From Aporrectodea caliginosa (lineage: Eukaryota > Annelida > Clitellata > Crassiclitellata > Lumbricidae), in assembly GCA_020284085.1 (NCBI GenBank), contig JACEVL010005024.1:372001-436000 (forward strand): a stretch of DNA of 64,000 nucleotides. The letters run 5' to 3'. The notes beneath the pieces are model-generated. The model worked only from the letters and a program-made list of their open reading frames with translations, was not told the DNA's origin and did not search any database. The stretch's first letter is position 1. Each line of letters begins with the position of its first letter. Both the position numbers and the translations under genes were made by a program. This document shows, one piece after another, positions 1 through 59,906 of the stretch.

Positions 1-53
1 ACAGTACCTCGCTACCCATAGACAAAGATGAGGACAAACCAATTATGAGCAAG
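1..53 (+). CDS. ITPR: ITPR exon W1a (3' part), duplicate of W1b
   Basis: The window opens inside an exon. From base 3 the codons read STSLPIDKDEDKPIMSK, then a GT donor (AAG|GTAGAT) at 54, ending in phase 0. This is the MIR-domain segment that in vertebrates reads like VHSTNIPIDKEEEKP. A second version of the same segment lies at 3687-3786 with the same end phase, so W1a and W1b look mutually exclusive. The acceptor of W1a is upstream of the window. Confidence 0.85.
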
Positions 54-3000
54 GTAGATCGACGACGCTGTGATGTAGTAGTCGTCTAGTCGTTATGTCA
101 TGTGGATTCTCCTAATTTCGCTTTTTTCTTCTGCTCTCCCATCTATGCTTTGGTTGAATTTGCTTTGGTTTTGTTTAGCATTTGCCAAATTAGACTCTTA
201 AGAATTTGGCCATTAGCGCAACTCACACTGTCTTTCGTCACATAATTACTGTTGTACTGGGGAAATTACTGCACACAGCCAAGAGTAATATGAGGAAGGT
301 CATGGTAGATATGGCTGAGTGGCTATATGTGCCTATAAGACAATGAATTGTGCCACTTCAGTTCTGTGAGCAATGTTGAGAGTGACAGAGTTAACAGTTG
401 GAAAGGACTGATGATGTAAGATTGATTGGCCAGCTTCACTACATGATAAGGTTGGCAAATGTGTTATTTCCACACTAGTAAAAGAATGTTAATTGATCAA
501 TTTTCAATGTCTTTCTGTTACGAGTACAAACCATTAGCTTTAGTTTTTGAAGTTTATATTGTGATTGGTATTTATTTTCACTTGCATGATAGAAGCCACT
601 TCTTCTGGCTATTTTCTTGGATGGCATATTGCAGTATTTTTTATTTCGTTGTTTGTTGTGGGAGAGTGGTTTTACATTGTATCAAAAGTTTATAATCTCT
701 GCAACAGTCTTACTTTAAGATGAAATTGTCATTAGCATGACTGTATTAAAATAAGAAACAAAGTTGAAAATATATGGTGAGTCTCTAAATAAATTTTAAC
801 TATCTTAAGCTTTAAAATATGTCTAAATTCTAATGATTTTATTTGCAAAAAGCGGCTTAGCAGATTTAATAACTTTTAAAAGTAAAACAATATCAAATGA
901 ATATGAAAGTTTTGTGTCATTGGAATCACTGTGTTTTTGATTCCTGGCTGAAGTTGATTAGATCCTGGCCGACTTTGGAATAGGGATTGTGTAAAATTGT
1001 TATTAGGAATACCTGGCAAATGGCATACCTGCTAAGAAATTGGATGATGTTAACAATATACATATTTATGTAATTACTATCATTGTAATACTATTGTGAA
1101 TACCATTCTGTAAATGCTGTACTTGATTTGAGGGTTTCTGCATGATGACTGAGTTTTTGCATGTGACAGCTTCTCTCCTATGGCTTCTTATCTTCTGAGT
1201 ACTTCATCTGACTATTTACCAGTCCATTGTTTAACTCATTACATTAATTGGTCCATGGTATATTTGGTCTGACTCATCTAGGTCTGGCCAAAGGACATTC
1301 CTACAAAATCTCTCTTCAGGAAATGTTATGTGAATGCTAGATGATGTTATAAATATCTAGCATAGTAACGTCTATAGCACCTGCATTGACGCTGCTCATG
1401 GCTAGAATGAATGATGGTTTTGAATCCAGTGTCTTATCTACCCAGCAGTAAAGACGGCTTTGTGGCATTATTGAGTGGAAAATTCACTGAACTATCAGAC
1501 TGCTGTAGCTTTCACAATACCTACCATTTGGGGCAGGATTATTTCATATGTTCTGTGATTTTATTTTTGTTTCTTATTTTGTTTTGTTTTGTTTTATCAA
1601 ATTCACCACTCTGCGGTTAAATGTTTGGCATTTTTTCTGTTTTGCAAGAACATTTCTTCATAAAAGAATTAAGCAAACAAGCACTGGTACTTTGTATGCT
1701 TAAGTTTGTGTATCTTTGGTTCAAATGAATTGTTTCATGTGGAAAATAGTTATGTCATGTGGCTGAATATTTATTTATCTGTCCTTCAGCTAACAACCAC
1801 TTTGCTAAGTGTTTATCTTGGTGCATTCTTAGTGCACAGACTTGACTGTGTCTGTGTTTCTATGTTTTGAGTGCAAAAAGGTTATTTTAAAAGTGGTACT
1901 GCCATTTTTTAAATTGGAATTTGAGCAACAGCCATTGTTGTACAAAGTCTGGGAAATTAGGGTCAGTGTGAGTAATAAGGCTAATCAGGAAGTTACTGCT
2001 GTAATATGAGATCAATGATGTTTGTTCACAACCCTTTTAAATGTTTTATTGCATAAGGAGACACAAGTCATGGGCTGTGATAATGATGATGAAGCCTAGA
2101 ATCAATGATGATGAGCTTGAAACATAGGTCATGTTTCATTATGTAGCGTTTAGATAGCAGTTTAACGACGAGAGTGTACCAAAAGTGACTGGGAAAGCAA
2201 TGCAGTTCATAGCTACAGTGTTTGGGATGTCTGATGAATGCCTGCAAAACTGAATCAATGTCTGTAGTGAATTTTAACAGACTGTTTACATTTAAAAAAT
2301 TAAAAGTTAAGTTATTTGGTAAAGCCATGCCAAAAAGCAAAGTTCTGCATTAGTGGGTAATCCCGTTAACCTGTTCATCTATCCAAGGTGAATATCTGCG
2401 ACACCAGTCTGGTGTCATCTGGCTTTCACTGTTCTTGTGTCTCGAGTTATTTTTACTGCTGTAATTTACTTTCCAAAACTTATGTTATGAATGTGCTGCT
2501 AGTGTTGTCAATAAAATTTGACATTATGCTTGTAAACATGAAAGTAATTGTAAGCACGTAGAGTCAAAGTGTGTCATATGATTGAGTACAGTATGTGTTG
2601 CTCTGCAAAGTGAATAATGCTCACTGGTAGGTTGGTTGACTGCAATGAAATTGTAGCACATATTGAACTGAGTTCTCTGCTCAACGGGCAATCAGCGCAA
2701 GAGTGACATGTTGCTATAAACATCTGTGTTTATTTGTTAATTACAGTAATCAATTTGGTTAGAGCATGGAGTGTTGTGGTTCTGGCCAAACAGTTCTGTA
2801 CCATTTGTATTTCATGTAAAGATGGTTAGTGATACCAGTCAGAAGTACCGTAATCAATTTGACTGGAGTGTCGAGTGTTAACTGGTGAAACCAGACGGAT
2901 TGACGCATGTGAGACCAGCTTCTGCAAATATCCCATACGTGGAAGAAAGTGAAAAGATTTATAGATCACATGAACATACTTTGAGAAGGACATGATATAA

Positions 3001-3686
3001 TGGCTTTACTGAATACGCCGGGATTCAGATGTGGACTGAGAGGTGAAATGCAGTCTTCCAACCACCTGGCCATCTGTTTCCTGTTCGTTACATAGGATGG
3101 ATCTCTGTGTGTTGTATCTCTTTCAGTTGGATTATCGGTGTAGCTTATTATGATTTCAGATGGCTGGTCAGCATGTGTTACGTTCGGTTTTGTGTATAAT
3201 ACACATTGTTTTACTGTTTCATTGTGTGTAGTTTACACAGGCATTTTATTCCGTGTTTGATACTTTATACGAGCAAGAGTGCATTTTGCTCAGTGGTTGG
3301 GCAGCTCATTCTTATAAATAATGGAATGACAGTTAAGCAATTCATGGTGTGTCATTGAAACTTCTATTGGAGGACACATTGCAAATTGCTTGCTTTCCTT
3401 TATTTATGTAAGAATTAACTCTTAAGTTGTGCACGCATGGTTGCAAATTTCATAGATAAAAGACAGTTTAGATTTGACTGCAACAGCTTTTGTTTTTTTT
3501 GCTCTTAGAAGTGTAGGAATTTTGTTTTGTTTTAACGTTTAAATTTAAGTTTAAGTGACATGTTGTAGATATGATTTCTGGTTCATGTATTAGTTTGGTT
3601 TTATTGTCTTGTTGCTACTTTTCTTTTTCTTTTGGTTTTCTTTCGATGGCCATTTGCATGTGCTTGTTTTTCTGTTTCCTGTATAG
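54..3686. other. Intron between W1a and W1b
   Basis: 3.6 kb, AT-rich. No repeat with clear boundaries and no further copy of the W1 segment seen. Any paired RNA element controlling exclusive splicing would most likely lie here or in 3787-5650. Confidence 0.6.
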
Positions 3687-3786
3687 TACTGCGTTCGTTC
3701 GTTTGCACCATCTCTGCACAAATACGTGGGTTCATAGTTCCACAATCCCAATAGATGTATCTGAAGAGAAACCCATTATGCACAAG
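3687..3786 (+). CDS. ITPR: ITPR exon W1b, end of MIR region
   Basis: The acceptor is TTTCCTGTATAG. One base completes a split codon, then [18 protein letters not shown] and so on to KPIMHK, followed by donor AAG|GTACTA. It is 100 nt, phase 2 in and phase 0 out. LCTNTWVHS is a hallmark of the last MIR repeat of IP3 receptors. It joins in frame to W2 ([16 protein letters not shown]). Its last 18 residues match W1a at 11 positions. Confidence 0.93.
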
Positions 3787-5650
3787 GTACTACACTATTA
3801 ATCTCATGTTCATTTTAGACTGCGCATTGCTGGCCTTCTAGAAAAAACTTCCTGTGGCAGTTTGGTTAGAACTTATAAACCTCTCAAGTAAATACTGTAT
3901 TGGTGGAAAGAAGTGGTGGTAGGAATCATTACTTGACATATCCATCAGCATTTCTTGTGACATTCTATTTGGGAGTAGATGGATACATGTAGATTAGCAC
4001 AGATTAGCTTATAGCAGGTTGGAAACATTTTATAAATGATAGGTTGCAAAATTGCCTTAAACCCTTGTGCATTTTGCTTCAGAGCAGTTTCATCATTGTG
4101 TTTTTTAAGCAAGTGCTTAAAAGGGGGTACTTTATTAAGTGCATGATCTTTAAGGTGCTTAAATGGTGAATTTGGGTCACGATAAGCTATCTGGTAAATG
4201 CTATGCATGTGAGTCATGAAGATGCACTGCAATGCATTGCATCACATGACGACAGAGGATTCCTCAGTTTCTTCTGATGCATGAACTTAGAAGTTATGGC
4301 TTCTATCAGTGATGTTGGCTTGATTTACTTTGGTGCAAACAGTACCTGCCTCTGTATGTGTCCTCCGTCCATCCTTTCTTTTGAATTGCTTTTGCATGAT
4401 GAAGTTTCCTACAGCCATTGAATCCTTGATGTGCTTATAGCCAAGAGGATTGCACAAAACACATGTACTTGGAAATTCTTACATCAGGACAGCTTGTGAT
4501 GTATTTGGACTATGTAAGCAGATGGGGTGGATTGTACACACACTTTGTGAAGCATATGGTCCTAACTAATAGGATGAAAATCTAGCTACATATGTGACTG
4601 GGGAAGTAAGAGGTCTTGTAAGCATTTATTAATGCACATAGCAGCAATAGTTCTTTGAAGTCAGTGGGTTTCCTCGTCTTTCGACTGGTGCACAGACGTC
4701 TACAGTAAGGGAAAGATGACTGTCGTGATTGTGATGCATCTATCCTAGTCATTGCACTGCTACTCAGAGGTAGGTCTTGTGTCCTGCTTCTTCCAGCCAG
4801 CACGACGATGGCAGTCTGACAGCTAGATTTGAGAACGACCTATTCCCATATGCTGAAGTAACAGTGTCACAAGACACTCAAGGATAACATCAGATGAAAC
4901 GCAAACCTGCAAGAAATTGCAGTCATCAAAATGATCACTTCATTTGATCTGTGCATTAAAAGCAGAGCAGTTGAGTTTCAACAATTGCAAGCCATTGGCT
5001 GGGCAATGATTAGACTTTGATTCTGTGGCACTAGGGATATTTACTGAAGCAAAATAGGTTTCTTGTTCCTAGGTGAGGATTTGTAAGACATGTCTATGAT
5101 TGATTTATGAATAATTATAGGGTAGTAGCTTTTATGAAAAATTATTATGATTGTAACAATTAGTTGAAACATTAGCCGTGTTGTAGGCTACAGCTAAGAA
5201 AGAAAGCGGCGACATTTTTGTGACAGTCTTGCAAAAGTTTTGTATTTATGGTTCAATTTCTTGGTTGTAAGTTATTTAAAAATTAGTACTTATATTTATT
5301 TAAGTTACATTTACACTCTGCTCTGCTTGACAAGAAGTGGTGTTATGTTCCCTAAAGCTATTAACTTAACACAGCATACTGGTTAACACACTTTACAAGA
5401 ACTGCCATGTTGCGCTAAATATTGACTTTTTCAGCATTATTCCTTTTAGCATATGGCTGGTTTATATGCTGTATGAAAAGGCATTTAAGGCATGTCCTCT
5501 GATGACTTCACTTTAACGAGTCCACACCTTGTGTGTCTGTGTTTGGTTTTTATTGCTACTTAAAGTGCTAAGTGATTTTTTAGGTTGTGTGAGCTCTTGA
5601 CCAATTTCATAACTTATTTTGATGTTGACAGCGTTCCTTTCATTTCTTAG
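3787..5650. other. Intron between W1b and W2
   Basis: 1.9 kb with no recognised gene or repeat. Confidence 0.6.
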
Positions 5651-5811
5651 GTTGGCTGTGCAGCCATTAAAGAGGACAAGGAGGCATTTGCCATCGTACC
5701 GGTGTCCCCACAAGAAGTCCGAGATCTTGACTTTGCCAATGATGCCAGCAAAGTCTTGGCTTCCATTGCTGCCAAAATGGAACAGGGAATTACAGCACAG
5801 AATGACAAGCG
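5651..5811 (+). CDS. ITPR: ITPR exon W2, IP3-binding core start
   Basis: Begins after TTTCTTAG with [18 protein letters not shown] and continues with [20 protein letters not shown], near-identical to the vertebrate family. It bridges the MIR beta-trefoil and the alpha-helical half of the IP3-binding core. It ends in phase 2 (AAG CG|GTTGGT), and the next exon completes an Arg codon. 161 nt. Confidence 0.96.
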
Positions 5812-6718: not shown

Positions 6719-6860
6719 TCTTGTCATTCAACTCTTGGCTGACATCATTTACTTTGTCGCCTACCAGGAGAGCACTGGAACAGATCCATTTGATGTTGAA
6801 CTAACCCACTCAGACCGAGAAAGACCAAAGCTTCTGCGAGAACAGAACATTCTTAAACAG
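6719..6860 (+). CDS. ITPR: ITPR exon W3, IP3-contacting arginine/lysine cluster
   Basis: The acceptor is TATATTTCAG and the donor CAG|GTGAGG; 142 nt, out phase 0. It encodes LVIQLLADIIYFVAYQES, then DRERPKLLREQNILKQ. In vertebrate ITPR1 the equivalent RERQKLMRE contributes R504, K508 and R511, which hold the IP3 phosphates. All three basic residues are kept here, so ligand binding is expected to be intact. Confidence 0.96.
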
Positions 6861-13689: not shown

Positions 13690-14455
13690 ACAAAGCAGTC
13701 TTCTTTTGTGGTTCTCTGCCTCTTAGGCAGGTTCAAATATCCGACGTCGCCACTTCTCTCGTTGTTTTCAATCCAATCCAGAAAAACTGTCTCCTCCTCC
13801 CCTTCAGTTTTCCTTCGATGACCGTTCTTAGTAGTGAGTCTCCTCTCAGCGGTGCCCGATCCATACTCTTATTGTGCGTATAAGGACTCTTTCTTCTCCA
13901 ATTATTCCCAACACTTCTTCATTTGTTATATGTTCTGTCCAGCTTTTTTTCCATTCTTCTCCATGTCCACCTCAAAAGCTTTCCAGTCTTCTTATATCCG
14001 CTTTTCTCATTGTCCATGTCTCCGATCCATACAGCACCACGCTCCATACTAGTGTCTTTATCATTCTTATCTTTAGATTCCTGTTTAGTTTTCCTCTCAG
14101 TAATTCTCTTCTGTTTGAGAATGCCTCCTTTCCTATTGCTATCCTTCTTTTAATTTCTCTGTGGCATTTGGCATCTGTCGTGATCATACTCCCTAGGTAG
14201 CAGAATTCTTTGACTTGCTCTATCTGTTTTCCTCCAATGTGTATTCTGACTACAGTTTCCTTTCCTTTACTTATCTTCAGTACCTTTGTCTTTTTGATGT
14301 TAATCTTCATCCCGTATTCGGTTGATGTTGTGTTTAGCCTATCCATCATTGCTTGCAGTCCTTTCTGGTTTCTCGCCAACATTGCCTGATCATCTGCAAA
14401 CCTTAATGCCTTTATGCATCTTCCACCAACCTTTATCCCCTCCTCCATCACAAAG
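13690..14455 (-). pseudogene. Non-LTR retrotransposon reverse transcriptase fragment
   Basis: Codons 14451-13972 give a 159-residue open stretch with the catalytic FADD motif (LRFADDQAMLA), YGMKINIKKTK, EFCYLGSMITTDAKC and LYGSETWTMRKAD. Downstream, homology continues in shifting frames to about 13690. 5'-truncated and broken; sits between W9 and the candidate exon at 14651. Confidence 0.85.
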
Positions 14456-14650
14456 CAGTCAACCGCATGAATTTAAAATTGCTTTCAAAATGCAATTTTA
14501 AATTTTATTGAGTTTGTAGCAGCCTTTACAAGTCCAATTATGCCCATGTGGATCGTGTGGACTCGTTTTTCGTAACCATAATTGTTGCTCTCGGTAGCCC
14601 ACTAAGAGCTGCACTTAAACGATTAAATGGTCGCAAATTTTACATTTCAG

Positions 14651-27575: not shown

Positions 27576-28579
27576 GGAACGATGAGACCTGGAGCAAATT
27601 TGTGATGGCTTCAATGGAATCATTGCCCCAAAATGTATGTTTAGCCACCAAGATAACGATTCTAAGTGAACTAGAAGCCGAAATATTATTGAAAAATCTC
27701 AATTTTCGTCGGCCATTTTGGAAAATGGCCGACCGATGAGACCGGAGCTAATCTGCGATGGCCCTAGTGGAATCATTGCCCCTAAATGTGTATGTTTAGA
27801 CACCAAAATAACGATTCTAAGTTGACTAGAAGCCGAGATATTGAAAATCTCAATTTTCGTCGGCCATTTTGGAAAATGGCCGACTCATGAGATCATGGGT
27901 TAATCTGTGATAGCCCTATAGTCGAAACATTATCCCTAAATGTGTATGTTTGGACACCAAAATAACGATTCTAAGTGAACTAGAAGCCGAAATATTGAAA
28001 ATCTCAATTTTTCGTCGGCCATTTTGGAAAATGGCCGACCGATGAGACCGGAGCTAATCTGCGATGGCCCTAGTGGAACCATTGCCCCTAAATGTGTATG
28101 TTTAGACACAAAAATAACGATTCTAAGTTGACTAGAAGCCGAGATATTGAAAATCTCAATTTTCGTCGGCCATTTTGGAAAATGGCCGACCGATGAGACC
28201 GGGGCTAATCTGCGATGGCCCTATTGGAATCATTACCCCTAAATGTATGTTTAGACACCAAGATAATGATTCTAAGTGAACCAGAAGCCGAGATATTGAA
28301 AAATTTCAATTTAGGTCGGCCATTTTGAAAAAAGCCGCCATCTTGAATTCTAAGGGAAATTTCGAATGCCTCCCCTTCTTGAAATGTTCTCTTAGGTGCC
28401 AACTACAACTGTGCAAAGCGGCAATCCGTGTTCAAAAAGTGCAGTATAATTCCGTGTACCGCCTGGACTATTATCTTGAAGTTCTGTGATTAGTCTAGGT
28501 AGGTTCAGTGTTTTGTTACTGTCTGTTTTAAGAAGCACAATGCTACCTATGACTGTCGTTTATTTTTTTAACTCGTGTA

Positions 28580-58681: not shown

Positions 58682-59906
58682 CAGTGATGTAGTACTCGAG
58701 TCCGGCCTAGGACTCGAGTCGGACTCGAGTCCGATTTTTGTGGACTCGGACTCGGACTCGGCTGGTCACGACTCGGACTTGGACTCGGACTCGAAGGCCC
58801 TGGACTCGAATTTGACTCGGTGACTCGGTTTCCAAGTCACAATTTTGTCTCACGATAAAAAAACGACTTGTATAATACTTCCTTACTAACGAGTCCAAAA
58901 TAGGTAGGCCCTATTCTAAACTAAAGAGCGCATTAGATATCAAAGAGCTCGCCGTAGGTGGAGGGTTGGCGTTCAGAGGGCATCGGGTGATCATACACCA
59001 CCCTGTCAGAGACGATATTCTTCGGCTCCTGCACTCATCGGAGTTAATGAGTGTATCAGACGCGCCCAAGAGGCCCGTTAGGCAGAATTTCTGGAGTTTG
59101 CAGCCGCTGGAAATTCTTCACCGCGATACTCCCCCCAAAGTAATGGCTAGGCAGAATAAAGCGCCCGAAGATCAAGGCCATCGAAGGGAGATTTGACCCG
59201 TTTATAGCGCTTATGACGTATCGGAATACCCCATTCGCGCAGCGGGGCCAGCCGAATGGCAATCGAACATTAAGCGATTTTGCAGCCCTCTGCGCACGAA
59301 CCGTAGGAGCCGTAGGCCTAGCATGTAGGCCTATCTAGAAACAAATGTGTTGGCAGCAAAGCAGTATTAAAATACCTTAGTCTAATCTCATTGTTAAGAA
59401 ATCAGTTTTTCAAAGCGTAATTCTTCAATTATTCTTGTAATTAAAATTATGGCTGAGGTCCCAAACCCAAAACTTGCAGCGGACAAGTTACATTATATTA
59501 CATCACCGCTCTTCAAAAGTAATCTTAAGACTTTATTAGTTTAAGATTTAGTATGATTAGACATTCCTGTTATGCGCTTTTGTGCAAGATTCTTTTTGTT
59601 TAGGCGCGTTGTAAATGGCAGTTCAATAATAATAATAATAATAATAATAATATAATAATAATAATAATAATAAATAATAATAATAATAATTCTTCCAGCA
59701 TAAATGTGCTGGTATTTTTCTATACCATTAAATTGCGTGTTTAAGTGAATTTTGGCGTTGAAGGACTCGGACTCGGACTTGGACTCGATCCTTTGGGACT
59801 CGGACTCGGACTCGAGCAACTCTGGACTCGGACTCGACTCGGACTCGGCTTAGGTGGACTCGGACTTGACTCGGACTCGGCTAAGGTGGACTCGACTACA
59901 TCACTG
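58682..59906. mobile_element. hAT-like element with GGACTC repeats
   Basis: Ends CAGTGATGTAGTACTCGAGT and ACTCGACTACATCACTG; exact 8-bp duplication GTCTGCTG (58674-58681, 59907-59914). Both ends carry arrays of the hexamer GGACTC in opposite orientation. The interior contains a decayed retrotransposon fragment and an (AAT)n tract at 59627-59690. Confidence 0.92.
58960..59290 (+). pseudogene. Gypsy-type pol (integrase) fragment inside the hAT element
   Basis: RGHRVIIHHPVRDDILRLLH resembles the start of the Gypsy integrase zinc-finger region. A second piece in another frame (DPFIALMTYRNTPFAQRG) resembles the later integrase core. The middle is deleted or frameshifted, so it cannot be functional. 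Confidence 0.55.

Follow-up and report, generated by a model that had tools for sequence, protein, structure and literature searches.

Introduction

In vertebrate IP3R1, the alternative segments SI, SII and SIII are optional inserts, with SI situated in the ligand-binding half of the receptor. A study of the Tribolium IP3R likewise describes an optional segment, GDSLLDER (PMC4204029). Tandem-duplicated, mutually exclusive coding exons are recognised by similar length, the same splice-site pattern and phase, and homologous peptides, as set out in PMC3228551. In a human survey (PMC5740500), exon lengths that are no multiple of three occur in 377 clusters (60%), which makes this the commonest among the three restraints that it quotes. 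Among Ca2+-release channels, the insect ryanodine receptor has one pair of alternative coding exons, situated in its second SPRY domain; its authors state that they made no attempt at mapping such exons in insect IP3Rs (PMC6026295). No report of mutually exclusive IP3 receptor exons was found in the literature searched, which was mainly open-access and included the accessible parts of PMC6026295, PMC4204029 and PMC8301844, and which therefore does not amount to proof of absence.

Here we describe a predicted exon pair, W1a and W1b, in two inositol trisphosphate receptor (ITPR) genes of the annelid Aporrectodea caliginosa. In length, splice pattern, phase, homology and a size that is not a multiple of three, the W1 exons resemble the tandem-duplicated exclusive pairs covered by PMC3228551 and PMC5740500, from which they differ in being kept in two paralogous ITPR genes. 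As in the insect ryanodine receptor, a Ca2+-release channel would be varied by one pair of coding exons, whereas domain, channel and animal lineage are all different (PMC6026295). Like SI, SII, SIII and the Tribolium GDSLLDER segment, W1 would be a case of IP3 receptor alternative splicing, but unlike these inserts it would be a choice between two homologous exons; this agrees with the original prediction for this locus, in which the vertebrate splice sites were held to be of another type. An SI-type optional insert was considered for W1 and rejected, as skipping disrupts the reading frame and each exon has a homologous partner. At a probability of roughly 85%, we read W1a and W1b as old, tandem-duplicated, mutually exclusive coding exons for the final stretch of the beta-trefoil that binds IP3.

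Results

Two ITPR genes and a cDNA-like relative

The window, the whole stretch of 64,000 nucleotides analysed (C4434:372001-436000, plus strand; genome of 1.098 Gb in 4,544 contigs), holds most of one ITPR gene, referred to below as gene B. Residues 373 to about 2231 of P0002, a protein of 2,726 amino acids, could be placed in order along the window by tblastn, and with flanking DNA included gene B covers 2,605 of the 2,726 P0002 positions. A second ITPR gene, gene A, occupies about 2.483-2.739 Mb of contig C149 on the minus strand and carries the W1 pair too; it matches both the first and the last residues of P0002, with 1,468 of 2,726 positions seen. Identity to P0002 is 91% for gene A and 76% for gene B, and the two genes are 73% identical over the 1,439 positions seen in both. 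The contig behind P0002 has 8,590 bases and leaves little room for introns, so P0002 most likely represents a relative's cDNA.

In quick trees, where the row for gene A comprised 1,468 of 2,726 positions and included some intron letters at match ends, genes A and B and P0002 grouped together with full support. The group fell within Lophotrochozoa, its placement going no further than the neighbourhood of Owenia and nemerteans. Because this group is separate from molluscs, nemerteans, Lingula and Owenia, the duplication that produced genes A and B most likely took place after those splits.

The introns of gene B hold several other features. A minus-strand ORF (window 13975-14472), one of eight ORFs scanned, gave a weak match to reverse transcriptase (PF00078, E 4e-7). 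The 19-residue reading SSAILENGRPMRPELICDG occurs twice in one intron (window 27706-27762 and 28012-28068, 306 bases apart) and is probably a short direct repeat. Asp-Ser or Gly-Leu repeat readings at window 58686-58830 and 59754-59894, also intronic, look like simple-sequence arrays.

Anatomy of the predicted exon pair

The features around the pair are collected in Table 1. Window positions 3-53 read STSLPIDKDEDKPIMSK and run into GT; positions 3736-3786, at the end of W1b, encode 17 residues, again followed by GT. The original prediction had assigned these two peptides to a pair of tandem duplicate exons. Their homology holds, as do the count of 11 matches in 18 positions (shared His included), the equal end phase and the GT donor on each copy. 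Each peptide is only the end of its exon, and of the two segments proposed 3-53 stands while the second begins at 3736 and not at 3734, a position inside the His codon that comes before (its second base).

Table 1. Coordinates of the W1 pair and neighbouring features in genes B and A (a slash marks an exon-intron border)
Feature	Position	Strand	Remarks
W1a, whole exon, gene B	C4434:371954-372053	+	100 nt; 47 of 100 bases precede window base 1
W1a, 3' part (canonical type)	window 1..53	+	donor AAG/GTAGAT
Intron W1a-W1b	window 54..3686	+	3,633 nt, GT-AG
TGCATG	window 3655..3660	+	starts 32 nt upstream of W1b
W1b, predicted exon	window 3687..3786	+	100 nt; acceptor TGTATAG/T, donor AAG/GTACTA
TAG reached in shifted frame if W1b follows W1a	window 3735..3737	+	after 16 W1b codons
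Intron W1b-W2	window 3787..5650	+	1,864 nt
W2, common to both predicted isoforms	window 5651..5811	+	carries counterpart of rat IP3R1 D426 (D of KEDKEAF)
Exon with RERPKLLRE	window 6719..6860	+	counterpart of rat ARM1 helix R504-E512
W1a, gene A	C149:2710187-2710286	-	
W1b, gene A	C149:2701598-2701697	-	
W2, gene A	C149, near 2695300	-	

W1a precedes W1b in gene A as in gene B, and in both genes the pair is bordered by the previous exon on one side and W2 on the other. All four W1 exons are 100 nt long and consist of one split-codon base plus 33 codons (phase 2 in, phase 0 out), with AG before and GT after, and all end AAG/GT. In each gene W1a and W1b share 23 of 33 residues, and in gene B 68 of 99 bases are identical; over the W1a-W1b pairs compared, agreement ranges over 22-24 of 33 residues and 61-69 of 99 bases. 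Each of the three structural features named in PMC3228551 is present in the W1 pair.

The likeness goes beyond chance: P0002 matched the W1b region of the window at E = 8e-11 (tblastn). When the genome was searched with W1b, the best candidates scored (E up to 10) gave four matches, all four of them the W1 exons of genes A and B. W1 alone has a second copy among the 39 gene B exons tested against about 94 kb, a set short of all gene B exons in that five of 51 solved junctions (low scores) and one unsolved junction were set aside. By this anatomy, the W1 exons are a probable mutually exclusive pair.

Reading frame of the four splice combinations

Four splice combinations were modelled in both genes. 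With W1a alone or W1b alone the frame stays open, in gene B through W2 and three further exons and in gene A through W2 as far as it was taken. W1a ends in phase 0 and W1b starts with one split-codon base, so joining the two shifts the frame, and a TAG follows after 16 W1b codons in genes A and B alike, the same stop arising because the His-Ser codons are conserved. Skipping both exons also runs into a stop, within W2 itself for gene A and one exon further on for gene B. Exclusive use had originally been argued from the expectation that double use would repeat one MIR segment. Such a repeat cannot arise given the frameshift, so that argument falls; the prediction of exclusive use itself is well supported by the anatomy and evolution of the exons.

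Age, selection and conserved residues

Informative nucleotide sites divide 11 to 3 to 1 between a pair that existed before the gene duplication, separate duplication in each gene, and a crosswise relationship; among amino acid sites the count is 3 to 0 to 0. The 11:3:1 pattern indicates that the exon duplication is the older event, and we favour a W1a/W1b pair that predates the duplication of genes A and B. In each of the six comparisons, third positions carry an excess of the differences (P from 1.6e-7 up to 0.011). For W1b of gene A against W1b of gene B, dN is 0.15 and dS 1.22, dS being undefined for the other five pairs. As judged from these exon comparisons, both the W1a and the W1b types show purifying selection.

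Between the two genes, 31 of 33 residues are kept in W1a, 25 of 33 in W1b, 44 of 54 in W2 and 45 of 51 in the previous exon, W1b changing somewhat faster than the last two. Across 72 distinct W1 segments (from 210 ITPR proteins among the matches listed), five of the 33 positions are invariant, namely R389, H392, W398, H400 and D407 in rat numbering, and both W1b copies keep all five. At eight positions (385, 386, 391, 402, 403, 408, 409 and 416) both W1b copies are unlike both W1a copies; position 408 is Lys in 61 of the 72 segments among the matches listed and Val or Phe in W1b.

Search for W1b-type proteins

None of the 210 ITPR proteins among the matches listed is nearer to W1b than to W1a. 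This set was drawn from overlapping lists (the best 120 of 3,371, 15 of 15 and 120 of 152 matches) and is made up of representatives of 90%-identity clusters, which could conceal isoforms that differ in W1 alone. With W1b itself as the scored region (15 of 15 and the best 120 of 152 matches), no W1b-type protein was found. Nearest to W1b among the 210 listed is the Hydra vulgaris ITPR P0194 (isoform X5), whose W1 segment ends PIDVTEDKPVMHK and resembles the W1b loop; it was not accepted as a W1b-type protein, as it still scores closer to W1a (by 3 score units), and the resemblance is taken as convergence. Another protein, P0128 of Tegillarca granosa, in which a canonical W1 segment runs on into unrelated sequence, is probably a faulty gene model. 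P0002 joins the previous exon, W1a and W2 exactly as modelled and displays W1a junctions only. Since no listed protein is nearer to W1b and P0002 joins W1a to the neighbouring exons, we infer that W1a is the canonical or default exon.

Splice sites and candidate regulatory elements

The W1b donors are weak: of 46 gene B donors, three score lower than that of W1b in gene B and five lower than that of W1b in gene A, the corresponding number for both W1a donors being 17. The acceptors show no common pattern, the weak one belonging to W1b in gene B and to W1a in gene A, and do not fit a scheme in which W1b is the weak exon.

Several ways of enforcing the choice were considered and set aside. Steric crowding is ruled out by the length of the introns between the exons (3,633 nt in gene B, 8,489 nt in gene A), and U2/U12 incompatibility by the fact that all six introns around the W1 exons begin GT and end AG. 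Docking or selector RNA is disfavoured as well, no convincing complementary intron elements having been found in either gene. The check for docking sequences suggested with the original prediction was run on gene B (ungapped pairing), and none of its four intron pairs rose above the maximum of 12 shuffles; in gene A (same settings, its own W1a-W1b intron excluded) three intron pairs gave one low-complexity match of 48 against a shuffle maximum of 43. Comparison of genes A and B yielded no convincing conserved intron element (best E 0.013), and within gene B two introns share an AT-rich match (E 4e-4) away from exon edges.

A TGCATG lies upstream of W1b in both genes, at 32 nt in gene B and 43 nt in gene A. 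The chance of this is about 0.005 for one flank and 0.02 over four flanks, and it is not significant over the eleven motif patterns tried. We take TGCATG to be the motif of an RBFOX-type regulator, and its recurrence is a weak lead towards such a regulator of W1b.

Position of W1 in the receptor

Residues 2-33 of W1b align to rat IP3R1 386-417, within betaTF2 (W226-V435). The trefoil exon that encodes RTTGR, residues which we take to be IP3 contacts, lies upstream of W1 and outside the window, and the exon with RERPKLLRE lies downstream (its register against R504-E512 is a manual count on the alignments); on this exon order, W1 has one half of the IP3 site on either side. The earlier placement, in the ligand-binding half upstream of the IP3-contact exons, has to be amended, W1 falling between these exons. 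In PMC9663519, the IP3 pocket is formed between betaTF2 and ARM1, with contributions from helices R504-E512 and R568-K576. The same paper assigns D426, together with D180 from an adjacent subunit, to a Ca2+ site that was observed only at inhibitory Ca2+ levels and that is put forward as a possible inhibitory site; a later paper leaves open which site inhibits (PMC11938044). By manual count on the alignment, the D426 counterpart lies in W2, nine residues beyond W1. An AlphaFold model of the N-terminal part of a relative's protein was unusable (mean pLDDT 50, mostly 23-40 over residues 1-331, which comprise the trefoil and W1), so the functional step below is argued from position.

Discussion

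The most likely mechanism by which W1a or W1b would be selected is a choice by splicing factors, with W1b, whose donor is weak in both genes, as the regulated exon. Messages that contain both W1 exons or neither would be removed by nonsense-mediated decay. Each gene would then supply subunits of two types, identical in their IP3-contact residues but differing in a segment next to the intersubunit Ca2+ site, and sensitivity to IP3 or Ca2+ would probably be tuned by tissue or stage, the least certain step of the scheme.

If W1b served chiefly as a poison exon, adding it after W1a would shift the frame and lower ITPR through nonsense-mediated decay, and the W1b peptide would rarely or never be made. 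The stop at the same place in both genes and the weak W1b donors would fit such an exon, but the shared TAG is explained by the conserved His-Ser codons, and a pure poison exon has no need of a frame that is open and protein-constrained in both genes, with five of five invariant residues kept and differences favouring third positions; we regard this explanation as improbable. It is quite improbable, too, that W1b is a decaying leftover of exon duplication and that all mRNA uses W1a. The faster change of W1b, its weak donors and the failure to find a W1b-type protein among the 210 listed would fit decay, yet neither W1b copy has lost its open frame, its length of 100 nt or its flanking AG and GT, even with synonymous change as high as a dS of 1.22.

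An assembly or mapping artefact, named with the original prediction as a possible refutation, was checked and is very unlikely, with next to no probability left to it. The comparisons made gave nothing in its support, and against it stand the identity of only 68% between the copies in nucleotides, the absence of a clearly shared flank in gene B (300 nt compared on each side, best E 0.013 upstream and no match downstream) and a second gene, on a different contig, that carries the pair as well. An old pair of mutually exclusive coding exons remains the preferred reading.

Under that reading it is plausible, from position, that the choice between W1a and W1b alters Ca2+ or IP3 sensitivity. A more specific version is doubtful, though possible: with four subunit types and IP3 contacts unchanged, a W1 switch beside D426/D180' would reset Ca2+ inhibition, and oscillations would be tuned by splicing together with mixed tetramers.

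The frame lock makes the claim of exclusive use easily testable by RNA. To judge from this pair, isoforms may also be missing from invertebrate ITPR annotations. The IP3-binding trefoil is strongly conserved, and an exchange of W1 beside the IP3 and Ca2+ sites would be a ready-made experiment on ligand sensitivity.
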